Source: Halioglobus sp. (GTDB lineage Bacteria; Pseudomonadota; Gammaproteobacteria; Pseudomonadales; Halieaceae). Taken from it: DNA of 64,000 nucleotides. The position numbers were made by a program, and so were the translations under genes. The DNA lies in assembly GCA_020443425.1 (NCBI GenBank), contig JAGRIE010000002.1:162647-226646 (forward strand), read 5' to 3'. Shown piece by piece: positions 36,252 to 47,778 of this stretch; the first letter of the stretch is position 1; each line of letters opens with the position of its first letter. The notes beneath the pieces are model-generated. The model had not been told where the DNA came from, did not search any database, and saw only the letters and a program-made list of their open reading frames with translations.

Positions 36252-37376
36252 CTAGAACACATAGGTGAGGGCGAAAAAGCCCTTGAAGACATAGTCGTCA
36301 TCGACGATGGGGCTGTCGGTGATCTCATCGTCAAAAAACTCAACCGCGACATTCATCACCACCAGCCAGTCTGTGTTGATCTCATACATGACGCCCACGC
36401 CGGCGTCCGTGGTGAAGGCGGCATCCACGCGGTAGGCGGGCCTGTCGGCGGTCGCCTTGTCCTGTGGCACGCCGAAATCGTAATCGGCCAGATCCCGCGT
36501 CAGCCAGTTGATGCCCAGCGTGGGTGAGAATCGGAACGCGCCCCACTGGAAGGACTTGTCGACCGCAATGCGCGCCTCCCCGCCGCCGGTTCGGTCCAGC
36601 ACATCGTGCTGGTAGCCGAGTGCCAGATCAAATCCCATCGGCAGTTCTGCCAGCAGCGCGAGGCCGGCGGTGAAGGTGCTGTCGCGGTCACCCATGCCCT
36701 TGAGGTAGTCGCTGTCATCCTCCTCGTAGACCCCGGGGCGATAACTGCCGGCCGCCGCCAGGCGCAATGTGCCGCTGCCGATGAGGCCGTAGCGTATGTT
36801 GGGGCCCAGTACCTGCAGGCGGTCGCCGTTGTAGGTAATGGCGGGAATGACCTGGGTTACGCCGCCGCTGTAGTCCCGGTACGGGCTGCTGCGGCTGATG
36901 GCGCCCACGCCGACGCCCAACCGTCCCAGCTTGCCCAGCGGGCGGTACAGTCCCACCGTGAACAGCCGCTCTGTGTCACCTTCCGCCACCGTGAAGGCCG
37001 CGCTGGAATAACTGGGCGGGCCTTTGGGCCGGTAGTTATTGGAGAATCCCAGCGGTTCGGTGGGTATCCCGATAAAATTTTTGTCGATCTCGCGGTTACT
37101 GTTTTCATCGTAGTAGACCAGCAGGGCATATTCGCCCGGGGCGACGTCCGTGATGACGTAACGAGCGCGCCCATCGAGCGTGAAGACCTCGACCCGGTCG
37201 GGATCCCTCAGGTCGCCGAAGGTATTGGCCGAGCTGAACAGCGCAAGCACAACAGCGCCGGACTCGGGCGGGCTGGCAAGCGCCACAGCGACGTCCGCCG
37301 CCAGTGCGCGGCTGGTGAGCAGCGCCAGTAGTGCGGTCGCGGCGGCGGCCCGCTTCAGGATGGCTATTGTCTTCAT
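36252..37376 (-). CDS. Exported DUF2141-MipA/OmpV fusion protein
   Basis: 374 residues. A signal peptide (MKTIAILKRAAAATALLALL, then TSRALA) leads to a DUF2141 beta-sandwich (residues about 26-130; FTLDGRARYVITDVAPGEYA, VYYDENSNREID, IPTEPLGFSNN). After that comes a MipA/OmpV-type outer-membrane beta-barrel: GVGVGAISRSSPYRDYSGGV, QVIPAITYNGDRLQVLGPNI, alternating strands, and the terminal FFALTYVF with aromatic C-terminus typical of BAM substrates. The two domains usually occur as separate proteins. The role is unclear; MipA scaffolds peptidoglycan enzymes in E. coli. It converges with the LysR gene. The start at 37376 begins at the signal peptide. Confidence 0.8.
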   Translation of the reverse strand: MKTIAILKRAAAATALLALLTSRALAADVAVALASPPESGAVVLALFSSANTFGDLRDPDRVEVFTLDGRARYVITDVAPGEYALLVYYDENSNREIDKNFIGIPTEPLGFSNNYRPKGPPSYSSAAFTVAEGDTERLFTVGLYRPLGKLGRLGVGVGAISRSSPYRDYSGGVTQVIPAITYNGDRLQVLGPNIRYGLIGSGTLRLAAAGSYRPGVYEEDDSDYLKGMGDRDSTFTAGLALLAELPMGFDLALGYQHDVLDRTGGGEARIAVDKSFQWGAFRFSPTLGINWLTRDLADYDFGVPQDKATADRPAYRVDAAFTTDAGVGVMYEINTDWLVVMNVAVEFFDDEITDSPIVDDDYVFKGFFALTYVF

Positions 37377-37701
37377 GGTCTGTTTTTCCGGGTTGTGACA
37401 GATAGGGTGGGAACACGGTTGCAGCGCGACGCTCCGGCGCCGCTGTGGCGGCGGGTCAGGCAATGCTGACGGACAGGGGCACGAGGCTTCGGGCCTGTAT
37501 ACGGTTGTCGACGCCCGGTGGATGACTGCAAACCTGTGCGCATGCCGTGCAGTGTGCCTGAAGTGTGCCTGAAGTGTGCCTGAAGTGGGTGCCCCGCACC
37601 AAAAAAGAACACCCCCCTGCCTTTATCGGTGCGCCCACGGCTGGCGGCAAAGTGGCGAAATCCTGGCTTTTTATGGAAATAATCATATAAAACAATACCT
37701 T
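37377..37701. other. Intergenic region upstream of the MipA fusion and the isomerase operon
   Basis: About 325 bases without a supported gene. It contains three perfect tandem copies of the 11-base unit AGTGTGCCTGA (37551-37583) and an AT-rich stretch (37660-37700) leading into the sigma-54-like promoter. Presumably it carries the divergent promoter of the MipA fusion. Confidence 0.4.
37551..37583. repeat. Three tandem copies of an 11-bp unit
   Basis: AGTGTGCCTGA is repeated exactly three times without gaps and followed by a partial fourth (AGTG). It could be a slippage product or a set of direct-repeat binding sites upstream of the operon at 37.7 kb. Confidence 0.6.
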
Positions 37702-37718
37702 GGAATTATACATACAAG

Positions 37719-37735
37719 TTGGCATGGTTTATGCC
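37719..37735 (+). promoter_or_regulatory. Sigma-54-like promoter of the isomerase/desaturase/ABC operon
   Basis: TTGGCATGGTTTATGCC has GG and GC dinucleotides 10 bases apart, as in the -24/-12 sigma-54 consensus. It is embedded in a 34-bp block (37702-37735) shared with sites before the Rieske and GlnT-like genes. Transcription would start about 37746, before the ATG at 37770. An alternative is a TetR operator. Confidence 0.55.
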
Positions 37736-37769
37736 TTTGCTACAGCAACAGCAGCGCAAAGGTAAGGTC

Positions 37770-38642
37770 ATGCAATTACTCAACTTCAAAACACTCTGGG
37801 GCCACACCACCAGCATTGAGCACGCCGCTCTGCTGGCCAAGGCAGCCCAATTTTCCGGGCTGGAAGCGCCCGCCGTCCACACCGACCCGGGCCATCTGCA
37901 GGCACTGGGTGAGGCGCTGGCCGCACACGAGTTGCAGTGGATACAGGAGATCTGTACCGCAGGCTCCTACGTCCCCAGACGGCAGGCCAGCGTCTGCGAA
38001 CACCTCGAGGACCTGGAGGCGCAAATTGTCATCGGCAAGCCGCTGGCACCCCGGTTCGTCAATGTGATGGGCGGCTGCGATGCCTGGCCGATTGCCACCA
38101 GTGTGGATTTTTTCAAGGCGGCGATGGAGATCGCGGATAAACACAATGTCCTGTGTTCCTTTGAAACCCACCGCGGTCGCTCTTTCTACTGCCCGTGGAA
38201 TACTGCGGCAGTGCTGGAGCAGATTCCCGATATCAGGATCACCTGCGACTTCAGCCACTGGGTTGTCGTCAGCGAGCGACTCATGGACAGCGAGTGGGAT
38301 GCCATCGAACTGGCGGCACAGCACGCGCATCACGTGCACAGCCGCGTCGGTTACGACCAGGGCCCGCAGGTGCCGCATCCGGCGGCGCCGGAGTATGCCG
38401 AGGCGCTCGCCAGCCACCAGCGCTGCTGGGAGGCGGTCTGGACGGCGCAACAGGCACGCGGCTACCAGCAGACAACCATGACACCGGAGTTCGGCCCGGA
38501 CGGTTACCTGCACCACCTCCCGTTCACCAATGCCCCGATCGCCGACCTGTGGGATATCAACCAGTGGATCGGCGCCACCGAACAGCAACATTTCGCAGCG
38601 TGGTCACAGGCGGCCACCCCACAGGAGGCCCAACGTGCTTAA
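37770..38642 (+). CDS. Sugar-phosphate isomerase/epimerase-like TIM-barrel protein
   Basis: 290 residues of the xylose-isomerase/AP-endonuclease-2 TIM-barrel family. Likely divalent-metal ligands are Glu in CSFETHRGRSF, Asp in ITCDFSHW, His in HAHHVHSRVG and Glu in TPEFGPDGY. Family members isomerise sugars, hydroxypyruvate or inositol derivatives, or act as lyases on small metabolites; the substrate here is unknown. The ATG at 37770 follows an AAGGTAAGG-type site and lies about 24 bases after the predicted start of transcription. First gene of a five-gene operon with desaturase, permease, binding protein and ATPase. Confidence 0.78.
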   Translation: MQLLNFKTLWGHTTSIEHAALLAKAAQFSGLEAPAVHTDPGHLQALGEALAAHELQWIQEICTAGSYVPRRQASVCEHLEDLEAQIVIGKPLAPRFVNVMGGCDAWPIATSVDFFKAAMEIADKHNVLCSFETHRGRSFYCPWNTAAVLEQIPDIRITCDFSHWVVVSERLMDSEWDAIELAAQHAHHVHSRVGYDQGPQVPHPAAPEYAEALASHQRCWEAVWTAQQARGYQQTTMTPEFGPDGYLHHLPFTNAPIADLWDINQWIGATEQQHFAAWSQAATPQEAQRA

Positions 38643-39648
38643 AGCCCTCGAACTGCGCGACCCACAGGGCGCGCACTACACCGCAGCTGTGCTGCTCTAT
38701 ATCGCGGTCGCCTATATCGGCGGCTGGGTGGCACTGTTCCAGGACAGTGTCGCGCTCAATGCCATCGGGGTCATCGCACTGGCCCACGGTATGTTCATTG
38801 CAGCCTACCTGCTGCACGACTGCGGTCACAACGCCATCTTCCTGTCTACACAGCGCAATGCCTGGCTGGGCGAGGTGTTGAACTGGATCGTCGGCAGCAG
38901 TTATGGGCGCTATGAGGATATCCGCTACAAGCACATGCGCCACCACGTCGATAACTACGATCCGGTGGTCTGGGACTACCGCAGTTTCCTGCAGCGTCAC
39001 CCGGCGCTGGAGGCTGTGGTGAAAGCGGCGGAGTGGGCTTACATCCCGGCAGTTGAGATCATGATGCACGCCATGATGGTCGCCGCGCCGTGGTGTATCG
39101 AATCCAAGCGGGCGCAGCGCAAACGGGTACTGACTGTGGTGCTGGTCCGCGGCAGCCTGCTGGCACTGGTATTCCTCGCCAGCCCGTTGGCATTCGCGCT
39201 GTATGTGCTCGCGCAGCTGTTGTTGATGACGGCACTGCGCTTCATGGACTGCTACCAGCACAACTACGAGGTGGTGTTCAACCTCGACGAGAAAGACGTT
39301 GACATCCCCCACCGTGGTGACGCCGAGTTCGAGCAGCGCAATACCTACAGCAACCTGCTGTCGGCGCGCTACCCGCTGATCAACCTGCTGGCGCTGAACT
39401 TCTGCTATCACAACGCGCATCACGAGAAGCCGACCCTGGGCTGGTACCGGCTGCCGGCGCTGCATGCGCAGATGTACCCGGATGTAGAGCCGCAGGTACT
39501 GGGCTTTGTCGAACAGGCGCGCGCTTTCCACAAACACCGGGTGGCGCGTATCTACGCCGAGGACTACGGCGATGACGAGGTCAAGCAATCGCTGGCGGAG
39601 GGGCGCGCCGTCGGCGCCGATGCCCTCAGCTTCCTGACCGCATTCTAG
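38635..39648 (+). CDS. Membrane fatty-acid desaturase/hydroxylase family protein
   Basis: Di-iron integral membrane oxygenase, 337 residues. The three histidine boxes are visible: HDCGHN, HMRHH and HNAHHEKP, with hydrophobic helix pairs between them. Proteins of this family desaturate or hydroxylate acyl chains or other hydrocarbon substrates using O2 and a redox partner. The start is a GTG at 38635 with AGGAGG seven bases upstream; it overlaps the end of the isomerase gene by eight bases. Its place within an ABC-importer operon suggests it acts on the imported compound rather than on membrane lipids (inference). Confidence 0.85.
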   Translation: MLKALELRDPQGAHYTAAVLLYIAVAYIGGWVALFQDSVALNAIGVIALAHGMFIAAYLLHDCGHNAIFLSTQRNAWLGEVLNWIVGSSYGRYEDIRYKHMRHHVDNYDPVVWDYRSFLQRHPALEAVVKAAEWAYIPAVEIMMHAMMVAAPWCIESKRAQRKRVLTVVLVRGSLLALVFLASPLAFALYVLAQLLLMTALRFMDCYQHNYEVVFNLDEKDVDIPHRGDAEFEQRNTYSNLLSARYPLINLLALNFCYHNAHHEKPTLGWYRLPALHAQMYPDVEPQVLGFVEQARAFHKHRVARIYAEDYGDDEVKQSLAEGRAVGADALSFLTAF

Positions 39649-39658
39649 AGGCCGGACG

Positions 39659-40468
39659 ATGGACGTTGCTGAAACAACATCACCTGACGCCCTGGCGAGC
39701 GTGCGCGCGCTGTTCGGCTCCCGTGTATTCCTGGGCGCACTGGGCTGGACGATGTTCGTCGGCGGCTGGTGGCTGGCCGCCAATGCGCAACTGGCGCCGG
39801 AGCGACTGTTTCCCGGCCCCGACCGGGTCTTTGTCAGCCTCTACGAACTGCTCACCGAGAAAAATTTCGCCGCCGACATCTGGGCCAGCGTGAAACGCAT
39901 TCTCACCAGCTTCTCCATCGCGGTACTGCTGGCCATGCCGTTCGGCCTGTTGATCGGCGCCTACCGGCCAGTCGATCGCCTGCTGGCGCCGCTCGCTGGC
40001 GCCTTCCGCTACCTGCCGGCACCGGCCTTCATCCCGCTGCTGCTGATGTGGCTGGGCACCGGCGAGGAGCAGAAGATCGCGCTGCTGGTGATCGGTGTGG
40101 TGTTCTTCCTGATCATCATGATTGCGGATGTCACGCGGCAGGTGCCGAGGGTGTATACGGAGACCGCGCGCACGCTGGGCCTGCGCCCGGTGCAGATCCT
40201 GGGCTCGGTCATTTTCCGTGCCAGCCTCGCCGGCTATGTCGATGTCTTCCGGCAGCTGCTGGCTGTCAGCTGGACCTACCTTGTTATCGCCGAGATCGTG
40301 GCGGCCACGGATGGTATCGGCGCGATGATGATGCGCGCCAAACGGTTTGTCCATGTCGACGACATCATGGCCGGCATTCTGGTCATCGGGCTGCTTGGCC
40401 TGTTGTTCGACGCCCTGTTCAAAGCACTGCACCGCGGTGCATTTCGATACCTTCAACCCAACCAGTAG
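39659..40468 (+). CDS. ABC transporter permease, NitT/TauT/SsuC type
   Basis: 269 residues with six predicted membrane helices; the cytoplasmic coupling EAA-type loop is recognisable around TARTLGLRPVQILGSVIFRA. The N-terminal VGGWWLAANAQLAPERLFPGP is typical of SsuC/TauC/nitrate permeases. It probably forms a homodimeric channel with the ATPase at 41.5 kb and receives substrate from the binding protein at 40.5 kb. The family transports taurine, sulfonates, nitrate, cyanate, thiamine precursors and similar small nitrogen or sulfur compounds. The start is 11 bases after the desaturase stop. Confidence 0.9.
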   Translation: MDVAETTSPDALASVRALFGSRVFLGALGWTMFVGGWWLAANAQLAPERLFPGPDRVFVSLYELLTEKNFAADIWASVKRILTSFSIAVLLAMPFGLLIGAYRPVDRLLAPLAGAFRYLPAPAFIPLLLMWLGTGEEQKIALLVIGVVFFLIIMIADVTRQVPRVYTETARTLGLRPVQILGSVIFRASLAGYVDVFRQLLAVSWTYLVIAEIVAATDGIGAMMMRAKRFVHVDDIMAGILVIGLLGLLFDALFKALHRGAFRYLQPNQ

Positions 40469-40493
40469 TTCCCATCAACCGAGGAGAAACACC

Positions 40494-41519
40494 ATGCACT
40501 ACCTTAAACTAGGCATCGCCATGCTGGCACTCACCCTGTGCGCCAGTGCGTACAGTTCCGAGCCCGTAAAACTGTCGCTGTTCTCGTGGCCGGGCTACGG
40601 CTTCTGGTTCATCGCGAAAGAGAAAGGGCTCACCGAGGGCCTGGAGCTGGATATCAGCATCATTGAGGACCCGTACCAGAGCTTCGGCATGATGACTGCC
40701 GGTGAACTGGATGCGACGTCCAGTACCGCTGAGTACGGTCCTATCGCGGCCGACAAGGACGTGGGGATCAAGCTGGTCACCTATACCAACCCCTCGTACG
40801 GCACCGATAAAATCATTCTGGCGCCGGGCATCACCAGCGCCGAGCAGCTCAAGGGACAAACCGTCGCTGTGTTGGAAGGTGGCTTGACCCAGATCTTCAT
40901 GGCGGAGTGGCTGACTGACAACGGCGTGGCGATTGACGAGGTCACCTTCACCAACCTGATCATGGACGATGCGGTCGGCGCGATGGTCGGCGGCACGGCG
41001 GCGGCCGCCGAATTCTGGGAACCGTTTGGCTCCCAGGTGCTGGAAGCACTGCCGGGTTCGACGGTCGCAGCGGACTCCACCGAGGAGAAATACATCACCA
41101 CCGCCATGCTGGGGGACGCGATGTATATGAGCACTGCCTTTCTCGAGAAGCGCCCGGAAGACGCGGCAAAACTGGTGCGCGCCTATTTCAAGGCGGTGGA
41201 TTTCTGGAAGTCGAATACCGCTGAGGCGAACCAGATCATCGCCGATGGCCTGAAGTTCAGCGTGGCCGACGTGGAGCAGGTGCTGGGCAGTACCGGTGAG
41301 ATCCACAAGGGTGGGATCTTCATTTTCGACCTGCAACAGGCGGCAATTTTCATGGGACTTATCCCCGGTGAACTGCCCCTGAATATCGCGGCCGACGGTA
41401 TGCAGGCGCACTGGGATGTCACCACTGACTGGTGGTTGCAGTTCGGTTTTATCGAGAAGGAGATGCCGATGTCCGCCGGTGTGGATACGGCTCCCCTGGC
41501 AGCGGCGCTCAACAAATGA
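40494..41519 (+). CDS. ABC transporter substrate-binding protein, NMT1/SsuA-like
   Basis: 341 residues with signal peptide MHYLKLGIAMLALTLCASAY. The mature protein has the two-lobed NMT1/THI5-like pattern: KLSLFSWPGYGFWFIAKEKG near the N-terminus, GELDATSSTAEYGPIAADKD for the ligand lobe and LKGQTVAVLEGGLTQIFMAE. Many relatives bind taurine, aliphatic sulfonates, nitrate or pyrimidine precursors. The strong GAGGAGAA site is about seven bases from the ATG at 40494. It delivers ligand to the permease encoded just upstream; its stop overlaps the ATPase start. Confidence 0.9.
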   Translation: MHYLKLGIAMLALTLCASAYSSEPVKLSLFSWPGYGFWFIAKEKGLTEGLELDISIIEDPYQSFGMMTAGELDATSSTAEYGPIAADKDVGIKLVTYTNPSYGTDKIILAPGITSAEQLKGQTVAVLEGGLTQIFMAEWLTDNGVAIDEVTFTNLIMDDAVGAMVGGTAAAAEFWEPFGSQVLEALPGSTVAADSTEEKYITTAMLGDAMYMSTAFLEKRPEDAAKLVRAYFKAVDFWKSNTAEANQIIADGLKFSVADVEQVLGSTGEIHKGGIFIFDLQQAAIFMGLIPGELPLNIAADGMQAHWDVTTDWWLQFGFIEKEMPMSAGVDTAPLAAALNK

Positions 41520-42310
41520 TTGAGCAACCGGATAACGGATTACTGGTACAGGGCGTCAGCAAGACCTTCCGGCTGCGCTCTGGCCAGGCCCTGAAAGCGC
41601 TGGACGATATCAATTTCGAACTGGAAAAAAACCAGGTGGGCGTGTTACTCGGGCCCTCCGGTTGCGGTAAATCAACGCTGCTGAGAATCATCGCCGGGCT
41701 CGAGTCCCATGAGCAGGGTGATATTTCAGTGGCGGGGCACTCCATACACGGTCCCGGTGTGGACCGCGGTATGGTGTTCCAGAATTACAGCTCCTTCCCG
41801 TGGTTGACGGTGGAGGACAATGTCGCGTTCGGGCTGAAAGCCCGGCGCGAGTCGCTGGACCTGCGCGAGGGCGTGGTCGATCATTTCATCCAGGCGGTGA
41901 AACTGGGTGGCTTCGAGAAAGCCTACCCCCACCAGTTGTCAGGCGGCATGCAGCAGCGCGTGGCCATTGCCCGCAGCCTGGTGAGCAGCCCGTCGATACT
42001 GTTGATGGATGAACCGTTCGGTGCGCTCGACCCGGAGACGCGCTGGCAGATGCAGAGCCTGCTGCTGGAGATTGTGAAGAAGGAGCGCACCACGGTGCTG
42101 ATGGTGTCGCACGATATTGAAGAGGCACTCTACCTGGGTGATGTGGTGTATTTTATGGGCACGCGTCCCGGCCGCATCCTGGAGACGATCCGCCCCGGCA
42201 TTGAACGCAGCAGCACGGACCGCGATGCGATTCTCGACGACACCGAATACCGCCAGCTCGAGCGCGAGATACGGCAGATGATGCGTTCCCAGTCACTGGT
42301 CTGTGCGTAG
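41516..42310 (+). CDS. ABC transporter ATP-binding protein, SsuB/TauB-like
   Basis: 264 residues. Walker A is [12 protein letters not shown], the signature is [15 protein letters not shown], Walker B is [12 protein letters not shown], and the switch histidine is in [12 protein letters not shown]. The ATG overlaps the binding-protein stop (ATGA), so translation is coupled. Together with the permease and binding protein it forms a complete importer of the nitrate/taurine/sulfonate class. Its 3' end overlaps the convergent TetR gene by 18 bases, which may allow antisense interference between the two transcripts. Confidence 0.93.
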
Positions 42311-42904
42311 CAGGCGGAGAAATTCTCCGACAAAGAAATCCAGGTTGTTGTCGAGATCAGTGATTTTGGAATCGAACAGCCAGCTCTGGGTAATACCCAT
42401 CAGGTAACCGTACATCGACAGTGCCACTGTATCGCTGGCGCTCGCCGCGCGCAGCCCCGCCTGTTCGCGATACCGTGTCACCCATGAGGCAAAGGTTGCT
42501 ATCAGTGATGCGGTCAGGGCGCGCTCGCGCACCAGCGACTCCGATACCGCTTCGGTGAACTCGGTTTTGTTCAGGAAAATCTCAAACGACTGTCGGAAGT
42601 AGGTGTCGTCTATCAGCAGCCGAAGCCACTGCCGTGAGAAGGCGTCGGCGGCCTGCTCCGGGTCACCGCTGTCGTGATGCATCGCCACCAGCTGTTCCAA
42701 TGGCGCCTGCGAGAACGCGAGGATTTCCTCGAACAGCTCTTCCTTGTTGGCGAAATGCCAGTAGATGGGGCCGCGCGAACAGCCGGCCTCCTCGGCGATA
42801 AGGCGCAGGGTGGTGCCGCTGTACCCGCGCTGCCCGAACAGTTTTAGCGCCGCGTCGACCAGGCTCTGGCGTGTCCTGGCTGCATCCTCTTTGGTTCTTC
42901 TCAT
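42293..42904 (-). CDS. TetR-family repressor, candidate regulator of the flanking cluster
   Basis: 203 residues. The N-terminal helix-turn-helix is in LFGQRGYSGTTLRLIAEEAG and CSRGPIYWHFANKEEL, with the AcrR-type YWHFxNKEEL motif. The C-terminal ligand domain is predicted all-helical with an aromatic pocket (YFRQSFEIF). It sits between the importer operon and the GlnT-like gene, so it is the natural candidate to sense the imported compound or a pathway intermediate. The 34-bp block found before three nearby genes has partial dyad symmetry and could be its operator; this competes with the sigma-54 reading. Confidence 0.88.
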   Translation of the reverse strand: MRRTKEDAARTRQSLVDAALKLFGQRGYSGTTLRLIAEEAGCSRGPIYWHFANKEELFEEILAFSQAPLEQLVAMHHDSGDPEQAADAFSRQWLRLLIDDTYFRQSFEIFLNKTEFTEAVSESLVRERALTASLIATFASWVTRYREQAGLRAASASDTVALSMYGYLMGITQSWLFDSKITDLDNNLDFFVGEFLRLLRTDQ

Positions 42905-42941
42905 GCGCAGTTCTGCTTGCGTAAAGTGAGTAGTCTAAAGA

Positions 42942-42967
42942 CGCGGCGTTGAAAGGTAAACGCCGCG
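42942..42967 (-). terminator. Probable terminator after the GlnT-like gene
   Basis: Perfect 9-bp stem CGCGGCGTT/AACGCCGCG with an 8-base loop, lying between the GlnT-like gene and the TetR gene. On the gene strand it is followed by TCTTT, a weak T-tract. It could also partly insulate the TetR promoter. Confidence 0.55.
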
Positions 42968-42998
42968 TGCGGTTGTGACAGTCGAGACAGCGCTTGTG

Positions 42999-44351
42999 TC
43001 AGCCGAACAGTCGCAGGTAGCGCTGCATTTCCCACTCCGACACGGTGTTGTGGTAGCTGTCCCACTCGGCGCGTTTGAAGTCGACAAATGCCTTGTGCAT
43101 GTCGGCGCCCATGACCGTCATCGCCAGCGGGTCAGCGGCGATGGCGTCGGTGGCCTCGGACAGGTTCTTCGGCAGGCACTCGATGCCGGCGTCGGCGATC
43201 TCCTTGTCACTGTAGCAGTACATGTTTTCGCGGTGTGGCAGGCCGGGATCGATGCCCTGCTCAATACCCTCCAGACCGGCGGCCAGCATCAGCGCGGTGC
43301 CGAGATAGGGGTTGCAGGCGATATCCGGTGCGCGGCATTCAACGCGGGAGCCGGCGCTGGGTATGCGCAGCATATTGGTCCTGTTGTTGTTGCCGTAGCA
43401 GCAGAACACCGGCGCCCAGGTGGAGCCGGACATACTGCCCTGCCGCACCAGTCGCTTGTAGCTGTTCACCGTCGGCGCGACCACGGCGCTGATCGCCTTG
43501 GCGTGACGCAGTATGCCGCCGATAAACTGGTAGGCCAGTGCCGACACCCCGCAGTCGTAGCGGTCGTCATCGGCGCCCGGTGCGAACAGGTTCTCGCCCG
43601 TTTCCAGGCTGGCGAGGGACATATTGTAGTGCGCGCCACTGCCGGTGCGATCGGCAAACGGCTTCGGCATAAAGCTGGCGAAGGCGCCGTGTTTACGCGC
43701 AATTTCGTTGGCCAGCAGGCGGAAGTAGATCAGCCGGTCCGCCATGGTGAGGGCGTCGCTGAAATTGAAGTCGATCTCAAACTGGCCGTTGGCGTCCTCG
43801 TGATCGAAGGAGTAGACACCCCAGCCCATATCCGTGAGCGCTTGCACCAGTTCGTCGATGATGCCGATATTGTCCATCATGCTGGGCACGTCGTAGCAGG
43901 GCTTGTCCAGTGTATCCCTGGTGCTGAACGGCACTATGCCGCCGTCCGCCGCTTTGCGCAGCACAAAGAACTCGGTCTCGATGCCGAGGTTGAGTGAGAA
44001 ACCCATGGCGGCGGCTTTCTCCAACTGCCGCTTCAGTATATTGCGCGAGCAGGCCTCAAACGGTTTTCCGTCGAGGTGGAGATCGCTGGCGAACCAGGCC
44101 AGCTCCGGGTTCCACTGGCACTGCTGCATGGAGCCGATATCGGGCATGGCGGCTACCTCGTTGTCGGAGATATCCTGTGGCACGCCGTCAAGGGCGGCGC
44201 CGGTGAACAGTTCCGAGCCGTTGAACATCTTGCCGAAATGCGCCACCGGCACAAATTTACCCTTGCTGGCACCGTGGATGTCGACGTAGCTGGCGATACC
44301 GTATTTGATGCCCTGCTCGATGCACTGTTGTTGCAATTTTTCGATATTCAT
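42999..44351 (-). CDS. glnT: Glutamine synthetase-family ligase, GlnT/GmaS type
   Basis: 450 residues, close in pattern to GlnT ('type III' glutamate-ammonia ligase) and gamma-glutamylmethylamide synthetase. N-terminal DIHGASKGKFVPVAHFGKMF and GSELFTGAALDGVPQD are characteristic of that group. The catalytic domain shows GIETEFFVL, DHEDANGQFEIDF, GSGAHYNMSL and SRVECRAPD, supplying metal, glutamate and ATP sites. It would join glutamate to ammonia or, more likely in this context, to a primary amine. ATG 44351 has AAAGGAAA upstream; the longer frame to 44411 is not favoured because it runs into the conserved promoter block. The gene is monocistronic, with a hairpin terminator downstream. Confidence 0.85.
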   Translation of the reverse strand: MNIEKLQQQCIEQGIKYGIASYVDIHGASKGKFVPVAHFGKMFNGSELFTGAALDGVPQDISDNEVAAMPDIGSMQQCQWNPELAWFASDLHLDGKPFEACSRNILKRQLEKAAAMGFSLNLGIETEFFVLRKAADGGIVPFSTRDTLDKPCYDVPSMMDNIGIIDELVQALTDMGWGVYSFDHEDANGQFEIDFNFSDALTMADRLIYFRLLANEIARKHGAFASFMPKPFADRTGSGAHYNMSLASLETGENLFAPGADDDRYDCGVSALAYQFIGGILRHAKAISAVVAPTVNSYKRLVRQGSMSGSTWAPVFCCYGNNNRTNMLRIPSAGSRVECRAPDIACNPYLGTALMLAAGLEGIEQGIDPGLPHRENMYCYSDKEIADAGIECLPKNLSEATDAIAADPLAMTVMGADMHKAFVDFKRAEWDSYHNTVSEWEMQRYLRLFG

Positions 44352-44394
44352 GTCGTTTCCTTTGAGTGGGAATGGTTCTTGCTGTCTAACAGCA

Positions 44395-44411
44395 TCCAAG
44401 AAACATGCCAA
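44395..44411 (-). promoter_or_regulatory. Sigma-54-like promoter of the GlnT-like gene
   Basis: On the minus strand TTGGCATGTTTCTTGGA resembles the sigma-54 -24/-12 element, but the -12 GC is GG, so it is the weakest of three related sites. The surrounding 34-bp block is 44395-44428. The predicted transcription start is near 44384, ahead of the ATG at 44351. Confidence 0.45.
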
Positions 44412-44455
44412 GATGCATATTTAATCCCGGGCCCCAGGCGGTTGGAGATAAGTCT

Positions 44456-45484
44456 TTGATAGATAAACAGGAATGGCACGAGTACACGTTCGATCTGGGC
44501 GATTTCCCGCTGCTTCGCGGCGGCGTCCTCAAGGACGGGAAACTTCACTATCACCAACTCGGTGCACTGAACGCACCAAAAGATAACCTGGTGCTGATGC
44601 CGACCTATTACGGCGGCGGTGGCGCCAGCAATCGGGCCTGGGTGGACGACGCCCTCAGCCCGCTGCACCGGCAGGGTTACTGCGTGGTGATTCCCTGCCT
44701 GTTCGGCGCGGGTGAGTCCAGCTCCCCCAGCAATACCAGCGGCGCCCAGGCGGGACCGGGCTTCCCTGCGCTCAGCCTGTCCGACAATGTGCGCGCGCAG
44801 CGGGCGCTGCTGCAGGGCCGGTTCAGCGATGCCATGCCCCGCCTCGTGATGGGCTGGTCGATGGGCGGCATGCAGGCACTGCAGTGGGCCAGCGAATACC
44901 CGGGCCGCGTGGGCAGTGTGCTGGCGGTCTGTGCGACGGCCAGATGCTATCCCCACAATCGCGTGTTCCTGGAGGGAGTGGCCAGTGCGCTGGCGGCGGA
45001 TGCCGGGTTTGCCGGCGGCCACTACACGGCGCCGCCGGTGCGGGGGCTGACGGCGTTTGCCACCGTGTATGCGGGCTGGGCCTACAGCCAGGCGTTCTTT
45101 CGCGACGCGCGCTATCGCGAGTTGGGTTTCGCGTCGATCGAGGAGTTGTTGGCATTCTGGGTGGAGGATCACCTGCAACAGGACGCCAACGACCTGCTGG
45201 TTCAGCTGCGCACCTGGCAGCGGGGCGACATCAGGGATACGGGTGCCGGTGATACCGGGACGCAGCCGCTGGGCTGTCCGGGTGTGATGATGCCGTGCAG
45301 TACGGATTTATATTTTACCGAGGCGGACGCGCGCCGCGACGCGCGGGCGCTGGGGCTGGCGTGTCGGCCCCTGGTCTCCGATTTTGGCCATGTCGCGGGC
45401 GGGCCCGGGCGCCTGCCCGGTGCAAGCCGGGCGATCTACGATGTGGTGAAAACCCTGCTGGCTGAGACGCAGGAGTGGGGATAA
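44456..45484 (+). CDS. MetX-like alpha/beta-hydrolase (homoserine acetyltransferase family)
   Basis: 342 residues. The nucleophile elbow is [15 protein letters not shown]; the catalytic Asp is probably in PCSTDLYF and the His in [11 protein letters not shown]-terminal [20 protein letters not shown] matches the MetX family. Residues LVMGWSMGG rather than the strict MetX pattern, and the context, make acyl-transfer to homoserine uncertain; hydrolase or acyltransferase activity on the cluster's substrate is equally possible. The start is proposed as TTG 44456, preceded by GGAG; an in-frame ATG at 44405 lies inside the conserved control block. The gene is divergent from the GlnT-like gene and converges with the Rieske gene (1-bp gap). 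Confidence 0.75.
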
Positions 45485-45485
45485 A

Positions 45486-46730
45486 TCAGCCGTTGGCGCC
45501 CGCATTGCGGCGTGCGGACTGCTGCTGAATCTGCCGCGCCAGATAGCGCTGGAACAACCAGATAGGCTGTTCCAGTTCGTTCAGGGGGCCGGGGCGGTAG
45601 GTCGACGAGGCCAGCCCGGACTGCACTGCGCCGCACATCTCCATATCCTCGAGATGGAATTTGCGCATCAGTTCAATCTCATCGGCGAGTACCTGCGGGT
45701 AGTTGTCGGCGCCAGCGGCGTCGGGGTGCACCAGCATGGTGGTGCGGATCTGCATGCGATCGGCGGCCAGCGGTTGCAGCCGGTACCAGTAGACGCGGTC
45801 TGCCGCGACAAACAGCAGGGTCGCGGGTGCCGCCAGATACACTGTCCACTCGAGGAAGTCAGACCGCTGCAGCCCGGGCATCGGCCGGAAGCTCAACAGC
45901 TGGGGCTCGCCCTGTTTCACTTTATCCTGCAGCGCATCTGCCAGCGGCAGGTGGCACACCTGGAAGTGCTCGCCCTCGGTGTCGGTCCAGCAACCCTGGG
46001 CCGGCATAATCGGTTGGAACAGTGTGTGGTGCGCGCCGGCGTGATGGTAGGGTTCCATGAAATTCTCCACCAGCACCTTCCAGTTGAACGGGCAGTCCCA
46101 GGCGATATCGGCGACCATGGTCAGCTCCTCCATATGCCAGCGTTGCAGGTGCTCATCCAGGCCGCCGAACAGGGTGCTGGCTGGCGCGGCGTCGCCGCTG
46201 AAATTCACCAGCACCAGGCCCTGCCAGACCGTGCTGTTGAACTCGTGCAGCCGCAGGCTTTTCTGCGCCACCTCAGGGTGGGTCTTCATGAACGGCGCAC
46301 CTTTGATATTGCCGTCGAGGCCGTAGACCCAGTGGTGGTAGGGGCAGCGGTACTGTGAGCAATTGCCCTGCTGTTCATGACCGAACTCGGGCGGCATCAC
46401 ATCCATGCCCCTGTGCGCGCATACACGCGATAGCACTTTGATGCCGCCGTCGCCGCTGTTGACCACACTGATGCGCTCACCCAGCAGTTCCAGATTGACG
46501 AAATCCCCGGTGTTTCGCAGTTGTGACAGATGCGCCACACTGAGCCACTGGCGCCGCAGGATGTGTTCGCGCTCCCAGTTGAAGTGCGACGGGTCGGTGA
46601 ATGCGGCTGCCGGCAGCGCCCGCGCTTCGGCCAGCGGTTTGTGCGCCGTGCGGCATATCGCCTCGTGCAGCTGGTCGAGGTTGCCCTCGCCGCTGTGAAT
46701 TTCCAGTGTAGGGAGGAGGGATGAATTCAT
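45486..46730 (-). CDS. Rieske non-heme iron oxygenase, alpha subunit
   Basis: 414 residues. The Rieske 2Fe-2S ligands are in CAHRGMDVMPPEFG and CPYHHWVYGLDG (CxH...CxxH). The mononuclear iron site is ENFMEPYHHAGAHH, which supplies two histidines; the third ligand lies near the C-terminus. Single-subunit enzymes of this type (GbcA-like) hydroxylate or N-/O-demethylate small molecules such as betaines; larger systems dihydroxylate aromatics. No ferredoxin, reductase or beta subunit is nearby, so partners must be elsewhere. ATG 46730 has AGGGG seven bases upstream; the promoter block lies about 70 bases before it. Confidence 0.88.
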   Translation of the reverse strand: MNSSLLPTLEIHSGEGNLDQLHEAICRTAHKPLAEARALPAAAFTDPSHFNWEREHILRRQWLSVAHLSQLRNTGDFVNLELLGERISVVNSGDGGIKVLSRVCAHRGMDVMPPEFGHEQQGNCSQYRCPYHHWVYGLDGNIKGAPFMKTHPEVAQKSLRLHEFNSTVWQGLVLVNFSGDAAPASTLFGGLDEHLQRWHMEELTMVADIAWDCPFNWKVLVENFMEPYHHAGAHHTLFQPIMPAQGCWTDTEGEHFQVCHLPLADALQDKVKQGEPQLLSFRPMPGLQRSDFLEWTVYLAAPATLLFVAADRVYWYRLQPLAADRMQIRTTMLVHPDAAGADNYPQVLADEIELMRKFHLEDMEMCGAVQSGLASSTYRPGPLNELEQPIWLFQRYLARQIQQQSARRNAGANG

Positions 46731-46797
46731 AGTGTGCCCCTGTCTTTCAGCTTTACATGGAGATGCCCGGTGGTGTCCCGGTGCGCTGTCCTGAAGA

Positions 46798-46814
46798 GGC
46801 AATATCTATGCCAA
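46798..46814 (-). promoter_or_regulatory. Sigma-54-like promoter of the Rieske oxygenase gene
   Basis: On the minus strand TTGGCATAGATATTGCC has GG-N10-GC and both half-elements close to consensus; this is the best of the three sites. It lies in a 34-bp block (46798-46831) shared with the other two. The predicted transcription start is near 46787. Confidence 0.6.
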
Positions 46815-46995
46815 GATGTATGTATAATGCCGGGGTGTTGATTTATCGCGATTTTCGCGGAATATGGGTGTTTTGACGGCGTTTTATTGCAGTACTGTTG
46901 CACCGAGGGTGGGGCATTGGGAGTCAATTCTGGTGCATTTGGCGCTGTGATGGGGCGTCGCCGCAGGGCTGCCGCTATACAGAGGGACAGGTACT

Positions 46996-47778
46996 ATGAC
47001 CCAGGTTCGACGATTCTGGCCGCTGCTCACCGGCACCCACCGCTACGAGAAAACCCTGTCCACGCGCGGTCGCGGCCACGGCGTGTTTCTGCAGGCGCCC
47101 ATTCTCGCCTACCTGATCGAGACGGCCAATGGCCGCATCCTGTACGCCGTCGGTTGTGACTATGGCAAGATCGGCGACCCGCTGCGACGGCGGCAGTACT
47201 ACGAGAATGCGGACTTCCCCTTCGGCCCGCCCGAGATGAGCGAAGAGCAGCGGCTGCCCAGCCGGCTGGCGCGCCTCGGCCTGCGGCCTGAGGATGTCGA
47301 CGTGGTGTTTGTCGGCCACCTGCATTTTGACCACGGCGGCGGCCTGTGCGAGATGCAGCACGCGGAGATCCATGTGCACGAACAGGAGCTGGTCGCGGCC
47401 CGGGAGCCGGCAGACAGCGCCTACTTCGCCGATGACTTCAGCGGCTCCTACAACTGGAGTGTCAAAGCCGCCGAATACGACCTGGTAGACGGGGTGTCGG
47501 CGATAGAGTCGCCGGGGCACACCGCCGGGCATATGTCGATGCTGGTGGAGCTGCCGAAAGGGCCCCCCATCCTGCTGGCCGGGGACGCCGCCGATCTGCA
47601 GGAAAATATCGATGAAGAGGTGGCGCCCGGGCTGTGCTGGCGCGACCGCGAGGACATGGCTGTGGCGAGTATCTGCAAGCTCAAGGATATAGCCGGCCGC
47701 ACCGGCGCCCGCATCTGGCCCAATCACGATATGGCGTTTTTCCAGCGCTGCCATCCCTTTCCGATGCACTATGAGTAG
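46996..47778 (+). CDS. MBL-fold metallo-hydrolase, N-acyl-homoserine-lactonase-like
   Basis: 260 residues. The di-metal site is built by HLHFDHGGG (HxHxDH), GHTAGHMSM and LLAGDAAD, with a C-terminal WPNHDM histidine. The MTQVRRFWPLLTGTHRYEKT beginning and the order of motifs resemble the quorum-quenching lactonase AttM/AiiB subgroup, which open lactone rings. A lactone intermediate of the neighbouring pathway is an alternative substrate. It is the first gene of a three-gene operon with an APH-type kinase and a phosphatase-like gene. A GAGGGACAGG stretch ends about five bases before the ATG. Confidence 0.85.
   Translation: MTQVRRFWPLLTGTHRYEKTLSTRGRGHGVFLQAPILAYLIETANGRILYAVGCDYGKIGDPLRRRQYYENADFPFGPPEMSEEQRLPSRLARLGLRPEDVDVVFVGHLHFDHGGGLCEMQHAEIHVHEQELVAAREPADSAYFADDFSGSYNWSVKAAEYDLVDGVSAIESPGHTAGHMSMLVELPKGPPILLAGDAADLQENIDEEVAPGLCWRDREDMAVASICKLKDIAGRTGARIWPNHDMAFFQRCHPFPMHYE

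Follow-up and report, generated by a model that had tools for sequence, protein, structure and literature searches.

A 34-bp block shared by three transcription units of a Halioglobus genome as a candidate AcrR-type operator laid over a sigma-54 promoter

RutR, a member of the TetR family, represses the rut operon through the operator TTGACCA-N2-TGGTCAA. It has been reported that rutABCDEFG of Escherichia coli is an RpoN target and lies beside the divergent rutR (PMC8743547), and that LuxR of Vibrio harveyi, also of the TetR family, activates the sigma-54-dependent qrr promoters (PMC2680268). In E. coli, the AcrR operator upstream of acrAB is the 24-bp sequence TACATACATTTGTGAATGTATGTA (PMC10597343), while PMC4424350 places a TetR repressor at sigma-70 promoters and so provides no precedent. 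Here we examine a 34-bp block that stands three times in a 64,000-nucleotide stretch of DNA from Halioglobus sp. (family Halieaceae; hereafter the window): before an isomerase/desaturase/ABC transporter operon, before a glnT gene followed by a tetR gene, and before a Rieske oxygenase gene. From its sequence, we read the block as a composite in which an AcrR-type operator is laid over a sigma-54 -24/-12 promoter, and we put the probability of this reading at roughly two in three.

The locus resembles E. coli AcrR/acrAB, as described there, in having a TACATACAT-N6-ATGTATGTA palindrome and an AcrR-like TetR regulator; it differs in that the promoter under the putative operator is of the sigma-54 type and serves metabolic genes, with no efflux genes, and in its conserved TGGC in the spacer and its degenerate right arm. 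With the rut system it would share a nitrogen-scavenging operon under sigma-54 and a dedicated TetR-family repressor, whereas the operator is a different one, several units share the block, and operator and -24 box have bases in common. As at the qrr promoters, a TetR-family protein would bind and control sigma-54 promoters and close a feedback loop; LuxR, however, activates, and according to its source binds 30-40 bp upstream of the LuxO site and not at the -24 box. Among the papers that searches of the open-licence library brought up, we recognised none on this cluster, and the arrangement may already have been published. The unusual part is the sharing of bases by operator and -24 box, and their separation in Marinobacter.

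The original prediction was that three 34-mers form a control block common to three transcription units, and this is supported. They align without gaps, are identical at 21 of 34 positions in all three (27, 23 and 24 of 34 in pairs), and end 34, 67 and 43 bases from the ATG codons of the isomerase (37770), Rieske (46730) and glnT (44351) genes, respectively:

37702 to 37735, forward strand: 34-bp block before the isomerase/desaturase/ABC operon (alignment, genome search)
44395 to 44428, reverse strand: 34-bp block before glnT, between glnT and a divergent MetX-like gene (alignment, genome search)
46798 to 46831, reverse strand: 34-bp block before the Rieske oxygenase gene (alignment, genome search)

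When the variable columns were left open, a search of the 4.33-Mb genome that allowed up to 3 mismatches returned these three places and no others, the reversed pattern matched nowhere, and the best match to any block elsewhere in the window was 20/34. The three-copy block is thus far beyond chance. All three lie within about 9 kb and could be recent copies of one upstream region that have no regulation in common; their flanks, however, are unlike one another, with the similarity ending at the block, and orthologous genes of several genera have sites resembling it, which makes this account barely credible.

We then surveyed 140 genomes of the family with the block pattern at up to 3 mismatches, a limit that a more divergent block would escape. 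The pattern matched in 18 genomes, and 6 of these were judged to be chance, their loci scoring below 14 bits against at least 38 for the others on a block matrix derived from 15 true sites; the remaining 122 genomes were tested by the 3-mismatch pattern only. The TetR gene is encoded in 12 of the 140 genomes, and exactly those 12 gave high-scoring blocks.

To look for an AcrR-type operator, we scored the two 9-base arms (18 positions) of the E. coli AcrR operator, of the form TACATACAT-N6-ATGTATGTA, so that the block itself was not used as a query. The Rieske block proved to be the top place in the window at 14/18, a level reached by chance in 0.04 two-strand hits, i.e. about 0.02 places, per Markov-simulated window, and all three blocks were among the five best window places (at least 12/18):

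37709 to 37732, forward strand: AcrR-type operator TACATACAAGTTGGCATGGTTTAT in the isomerase block (arm score 12/18)
44398 to 44421, reverse strand: AcrR-type operator AATATGCATCTTGGCATGTTTCTT in the glnT block (arm score 12/18)
46801 to 46824, reverse strand: AcrR-type operator TACATACATCTTGGCATAGATATT in the Rieske block (arm score 14/18)

Relatives show a stronger signal, with operators of up to 16/18, and in Marinobacter the form TACATACAT-GCTGGC-ATGTAAGTT is reached. Forty loci of the set L055-L099 have the TetR gene in the stretch examined, and 39 of them have their best operator place (13-16/18) at the block; the exception, L060, has the TetR gene and no operator place at 13/18 or above. 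The 35 loci L100-L134, which lack TetR by tblastn at 1e-8, contained no block-matrix match above 15.3 bits and only three stray operator matches at 13/18. As a positive control, the block pattern matched, in one Marinobacter genome, the intergenic stretch that separates a gene of the AcrR/MtrR type from one for an RND efflux adaptor. The wider search with this pattern gave 38 places in 15 genomes, many of them chance (6 for the reversed control); besides glnT sites, four of these places, chosen by eye, were examined (L174, L175, L176 and L183).

The best NCBIfam match of the local TetR protein is the AcrR model, at 106.5 bits under a curated cut-off of 271, and no efflux genes were found among the ten window proteins scanned with Pfam and NCBIfam; the regulator is therefore AcrR-like and not AcrR itself. 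Its best matches among PDB structures are NalD, AcrR and TtgR, and its recognition-helix region, GCSRGPIYWHF, is close to GVTRGAIYWHF. It had been suggested that this protein might bind the upstream half of the block. The link to the local TetR is retained, whereas the predicted site is palindromic and has its centre in the block, which would make TTGGCAT both the -24 box and the central and right-hand portion of the operator. A further impression, of a glnT operator with clearly greater symmetry than that of the isomerase operon, weakened on recount: the right arms of Halieaceae operators average 6.0/9 at glnT and 5.2/9 at the isomerase operon, and the wider gap seen at first was due to out-of-register sites.

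The sigma-54 consensus is GG-N10-GC within YTGGCAYR-N4-TTGC. A sigma-54-like element had been proposed for all three blocks; it holds for the isomerase operon and the Rieske gene, where GG-N10-GC was confirmed, while the glnT block departs from a normal sigma-54 promoter, reading GG-N10-GG and thus having the -24 GG without the C at -12. The two elements are:

37720 to 37734, forward strand: sigma-54 -24/-12 element TGGCATGGTTTATGC in the isomerase block (motif)
46799 to 46813, reverse strand: sigma-54 -24/-12 element TGGCATAGATATTGC in the Rieske block (motif)

GC was found at -12 in all ten block-located Halieaceae isomerase sites. Among six Rieske orthologues with at least 71% identity, five have a site, and all five sites have GG-N10-GC, one of them (L151) having been found by a pattern that demands GC; the sixth, in genome G122, has no site and was dropped before the sites were counted, as was a 40%-identical Rieske paralogue (L155). 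L151 itself, a 73%-identical Rieske relative in genome G128, has one in-frame TGA in its reading.

An upstream half-site pair at the same two units had been missed in the original prediction. In the isomerase and Rieske promoters alike, GCACCA stands near -124 and GGTGC near -91:

37596 to 37601, forward strand: NtrC-like half-site GCACCA of the isomerase unit (motif)
37628 to 37632, forward strand: NtrC-like half-site GGTGC of the isomerase unit (motif)
46931 to 46936, reverse strand: NtrC-like half-site GCACCA of the Rieske unit (motif)
46899 to 46904, reverse strand: NtrC-like half-site GGTGCA of the Rieske unit (motif)

The pair is present at 10/10 Halieaceae isomerase sites. A composite pattern, GCACCA-N{20,36}-GGTGC-N{75,98}-TGGCA-N7-TGC, had exactly two matches in the genome of the window, namely the isomerase and Rieske blocks, and matched in 38 of the 140 family genomes; the reversed control gave a single match in total. 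We inspected 20 of the matching loci and found that 17 precede recognisable target genes (TorF-type porin 10, isomerase 3, P-II 2, glnA 1, formate/nitrite-family transporter 1); the other three (L196, L211 and L212) have no recognisable target and look like chance. Four of the downstream proteins, one for each non-isomerase kind, were named as fragments by hidden Markov model (HMM), the transporter with an HMM score below the curated cut-off, and the rest were recognised by likeness. The porin loci of other Halieaceae with this enhancer-plus-sigma-54 pattern (L199-L201, L203-L208 and L210) in several cases continue, by eye, with a P-II or ammonium-transporter-like frame.

Genes for glnA and P-II are classical NtrC targets. 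The 17-bp NtrC box TGCACCAnnnTGGTGCA (PMC8743547) is built from the same half-sites as the GCACCA...GGTGC pair, and since relatives carry this pattern in front of glnA, P-II and porin genes, the pair would point to NtrC as the activator. We infer NtrC, and go no further, because the window isomerase and Rieske promoters hold the half-site pair only. Compared with the Halieaceae glnA and P-II promoters, where the pair likewise lies about 90-125 bp upstream of the -24/-12 element, an operator is added here, and half-sites take the place of a significant 17-bp box. Elsewhere, the box reaches 11/12 at two of three Marinobacter isomerase promoters, two Halieaceae isomerase promoters and one Rieske promoter. 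In addition, TGCACC-N5-GGTGCA with one mismatch occurs at 17 palindromic places in the genome of the window, against 4 for the control.

Outside the Halieaceae, six isomerase promoters from Marinobacter, Alloalcanivorax and Methylophaga have sigma-54 elements scoring 22-23 of 23; these sites were taken as the best sigma-54 score within 260 bp, and they show presence, not frequency (L192, an isomerase relative with an in-frame TGA, was missed by the start motif and left out of the comparison). In 3/3 Marinobacter genomes, TGGCAYARCGGTTGCA precedes the isomerase gene, and the palindrome (11-13/18) is separate and inverted, with its start some 40 bp before the sigma-54 element. The Alloalcanivorax mobilis promoter has TTGGCACGCTGGTTGCT and no operator above 10/18, and the Methylophaga promoter has TTGGCATGGCTATTGCC; here a palindrome resembling the operator (13/18) is shifted upstream by about 11 bp relative to its place in Halieaceae. 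As the sigma-54 element persists where the operator has moved or gone, the two appear to be distinct elements. Upstream of the sigma-54 element at one Methylophaga isomerase gene (L187) we also noted the palindrome-like stretches TTTACATGCAAA and TATGCATAATTGCATGTA; in the genome of L187, tblastn found no relative of TetR at the glnT locus L093.

These promoters bear on the possibility that the block is a TetR operator and nothing else, its -24/-12 likeness being a by-product and another sigma factor transcribing the genes. Such an account would explain the exact overlap of the AcrR operator with the -24 box and the missing C at -12 in the glnT block, and for glnT alone it may be true. It leaves unexplained, however, the high-scoring sigma-54 elements of isomerase promoters whose operator is elsewhere, degenerate or shifted, as well as the NtrC-like pair at a fixed distance and the occurrence of the same composite before glnA and P-II in relatives. 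For the block as a whole we therefore consider it unlikely.

The glnT unit differs from the other two. TGGCAYG-N4-TTG is found upstream of 45 of the 46 glnT genes examined, the last (L061, whose contig ends before the block) having been dropped from the table. TTG is followed by A, G or T, with C at -12 in 0/45 sites, and the GCACCA...GGTGC pair is found at the isomerase distance in 0/45. Because the operator is kept while the -12 C and the near pair are absent, glnT would be governed mainly by the repressor, and we suggest that the glnT-tetR block serves chiefly as an operator and that the promoter there is of another type; this is the least certain part of our interpretation.

The glnT comparison also weighs on the opposite possibility, in which the whole block, including its upstream half, is a pure sigma-54/NtrC promoter that TetR does not bind. 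TGGCA and the -13 G are in register at 68/68 tabulated sites, most of which were chosen by patterns holding these letters; rpoN is present in 12/12 block-bearing family genomes; and the enhancer pair stands at two units, with NtrC-like half-sites farther up at glnT. On the other hand, glnT keeps TACATACAT-like arms in spite of lacking the -12 C at every one of its 45 sites, the palindrome of the three Marinobacter genomes is apart from the sigma-54 element and inverted to it, and the block tracks the TetR gene. We regard this possibility, too, as improbable.

A conserved element lies downstream of the glnT block, at 44353-44395 in the window and in the leaders of L073, L074, L077 and L087. It reads AAGAAAC-RTGCCAG or a variant, an inverted copy of TGGCAYG, in Marinobacter glnT leaders and AAGAA-N2-ATTCCC in most aligned Halieaceae ones, and it may be a second operator half. 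With TGGCATG followed by inverted CRTGCCA, pairing is possible in Marinobacter, and the block could then be part of an RNA leader (a hairpin or riboswitch). Against this, a fold of 14 aligned glnT leaders gave no consensus structure and no conserved pair, a search of 37000-47500 against Rfam with E up to 1 returned one miRNA family at 24.5 bits (gathering score 66), and a sigma-54 start would fall downstream of the first arm, all of which makes an RNA leader very improbable.

Several observations weigh against the composite of operator and promoter that we prefer. At the level of the operator, the isomerase and glnT sites score 12/18, which is unexceptional by itself in a window that has five places at 12 or above and about 3 expected, and the operator of the G056 Rieske gene is weak (10/18). 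At L087, L094 and L098 the block is present but the stretch examined contains no TetR, the block matrix was built from the same sites that it then scored, and the co-occurrence of TetR and block could reflect a locus inherited as one piece. TGGCAYG-N4-TTG at glnT is also more asymmetric than a plain operator needs, and it is kept in two Methylophaga loci without TetR in the stretch examined. At the level of the promoter, the G122 Rieske gene has no site, and the out-of-family isomerase sites, L193, L195 and L151 were chosen by sigma-54 or composite patterns, so that their -12 GC is partly a matter of choice. At the window isomerase (p 0.33) and Rieske (p 0.85) promoters the 17-bp NtrC box falls short of significance, and a tblastn search at 1e-15 with frames of bacterial enhancer-binding proteins (from 7 of 8 strong hits in the genome of the window; L138 gave none under the motif filter) found no enhancer-binding protein at 80 glnT loci. 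A local activator of this kind was accordingly rejected, a result that fits a global one. Finally, there are distant half-sites at glnT: a 10/12 NtrC-like box at -156 in the window (p 0.01-0.03), TGGTGC and GCACCA near -167 and -154 in most Halieaceae, and GCACCA and TGGTGC near -228 and -187 in most Marinobacter. All of them (-150 to -230 in L055-L099; -156 to -184 in the window) fall inside the MetX-like gene and may represent coding conservation or a distant enhancer; they leave room for sigma-54 and NtrC at glnT.

Building on the operator likeness, the sigma-54 element, the half-site pair and the co-occurrence with TetR, all of them read from sequence, we infer binding, repression, activation by NtrC, autoregulation and a ligand in the following model. 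TTGGCAT would serve both the operator and the sigma-54 promoter, and the AcrR-like TetR protein on the block would keep sigma-54 RNA polymerase off or locked until a pathway ligand releases the repressor. When nitrogen runs short, the isomerase operon and the Rieske gene would be switched on by NtrC, bound about 90-124 bp upstream at the GCACCA...GGTGC pair, so that these two units would require shortage of nitrogen as well as release of the repressor. The glnT-tetR unit would respond to the pathway compound and give feedback; since the TetR protein is encoded directly downstream of glnT, it is probably autoregulated. In its fullest form, to which we would give slightly less than even odds, the 34 bp would constitute an AND gate in which the -24 box is the core of the TetR operator and the repressor blocks a poised sigma-54 polymerase, in a regulon that scavenges nitrogen from methylated or quaternary amines. 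It is part of this tentative proposal that fusion or separation of operator and promoter arose during evolution, as relatives keep the elements apart.

The genes around the three blocks are as follows:

37770 to 38642, forward strand: xylose-isomerase-like TIM barrel protein, first gene of the operon (PF01261)
38530 to 39648, forward strand: fatty-acid-desaturase-family protein, start codon uncertain (PF00487)
39659 to 40468, forward strand: ABC transporter permease (Pfam/NCBIfam)
40488 to 41519, forward strand: ABC transporter substrate-binding protein, NMT1/SsuA-like, start codon uncertain (Pfam/NCBIfam)
41516 to 42310, forward strand: ABC transporter ATP-binding protein (Pfam/NCBIfam)
42293 to 42904, reverse strand: AcrR-like TetR-family regulator (Pfam/NCBIfam, PDB matches)
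42999 to 44351, reverse strand: GlnT, type III glutamate-ammonia ligase family (NCBIfam, PDB matches)
44405 to 45484, forward strand: MetX-like alpha/beta hydrolase, divergent from glnT (Pfam/NCBIfam)
45486 to 46730, reverse strand: Rieske non-haem iron oxygenase alpha subunit (Pfam/NCBIfam, PDB matches)

The tetR gene follows glnT on the same strand after 94 bp and is probably part of the glnT operon; loci of Halieaceae, Marinobacter, Stutzerimonas and Alloalcanivorax show the order tetR, glnT, block and divergent MetX-like gene. The nearest named loci belong to Haliea, Halioglobus and Litorirhabdus. For the MetX-like gene, the listed ATG (44405) falls inside the glnT block. A TTG at 44456 with GGAG upstream is the likelier start, in which case the operator would stand between two divergent genes. 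The closest solved structure to GlnT is glutamate--methylamine ligase, and the best match of the Rieske enzyme among solved structures is carnitine monooxygenase; from these two matches, the substrate of the cluster may yield an amine. It has been reported that AcrR also controls puuA, the gene of another glutamate-amine ligase (PMC9769551). Cyanobacterial loci (L103, L122, L128 and L134) combine GlnT with distant relatives of the ABC transporter and the isomerase, and some cyanobacterial GlnT loci also hold Rieske and MetX-like genes. No block and no TetR were found in the stretches examined at these four loci, and the pathway may be wider than this regulation.

If the composite reading is true, an uncharacterised marine nitrogen-acquisition cluster would be placed in a regulon whose repressor is named and whose operator, sigma factor and activator are predicted. 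Furthermore, because operator and -24 box would share bases in one family and stand separate in Marinobacter, direct occlusion of the sigma-54 closed complex by a TetR-family repressor would become testable.

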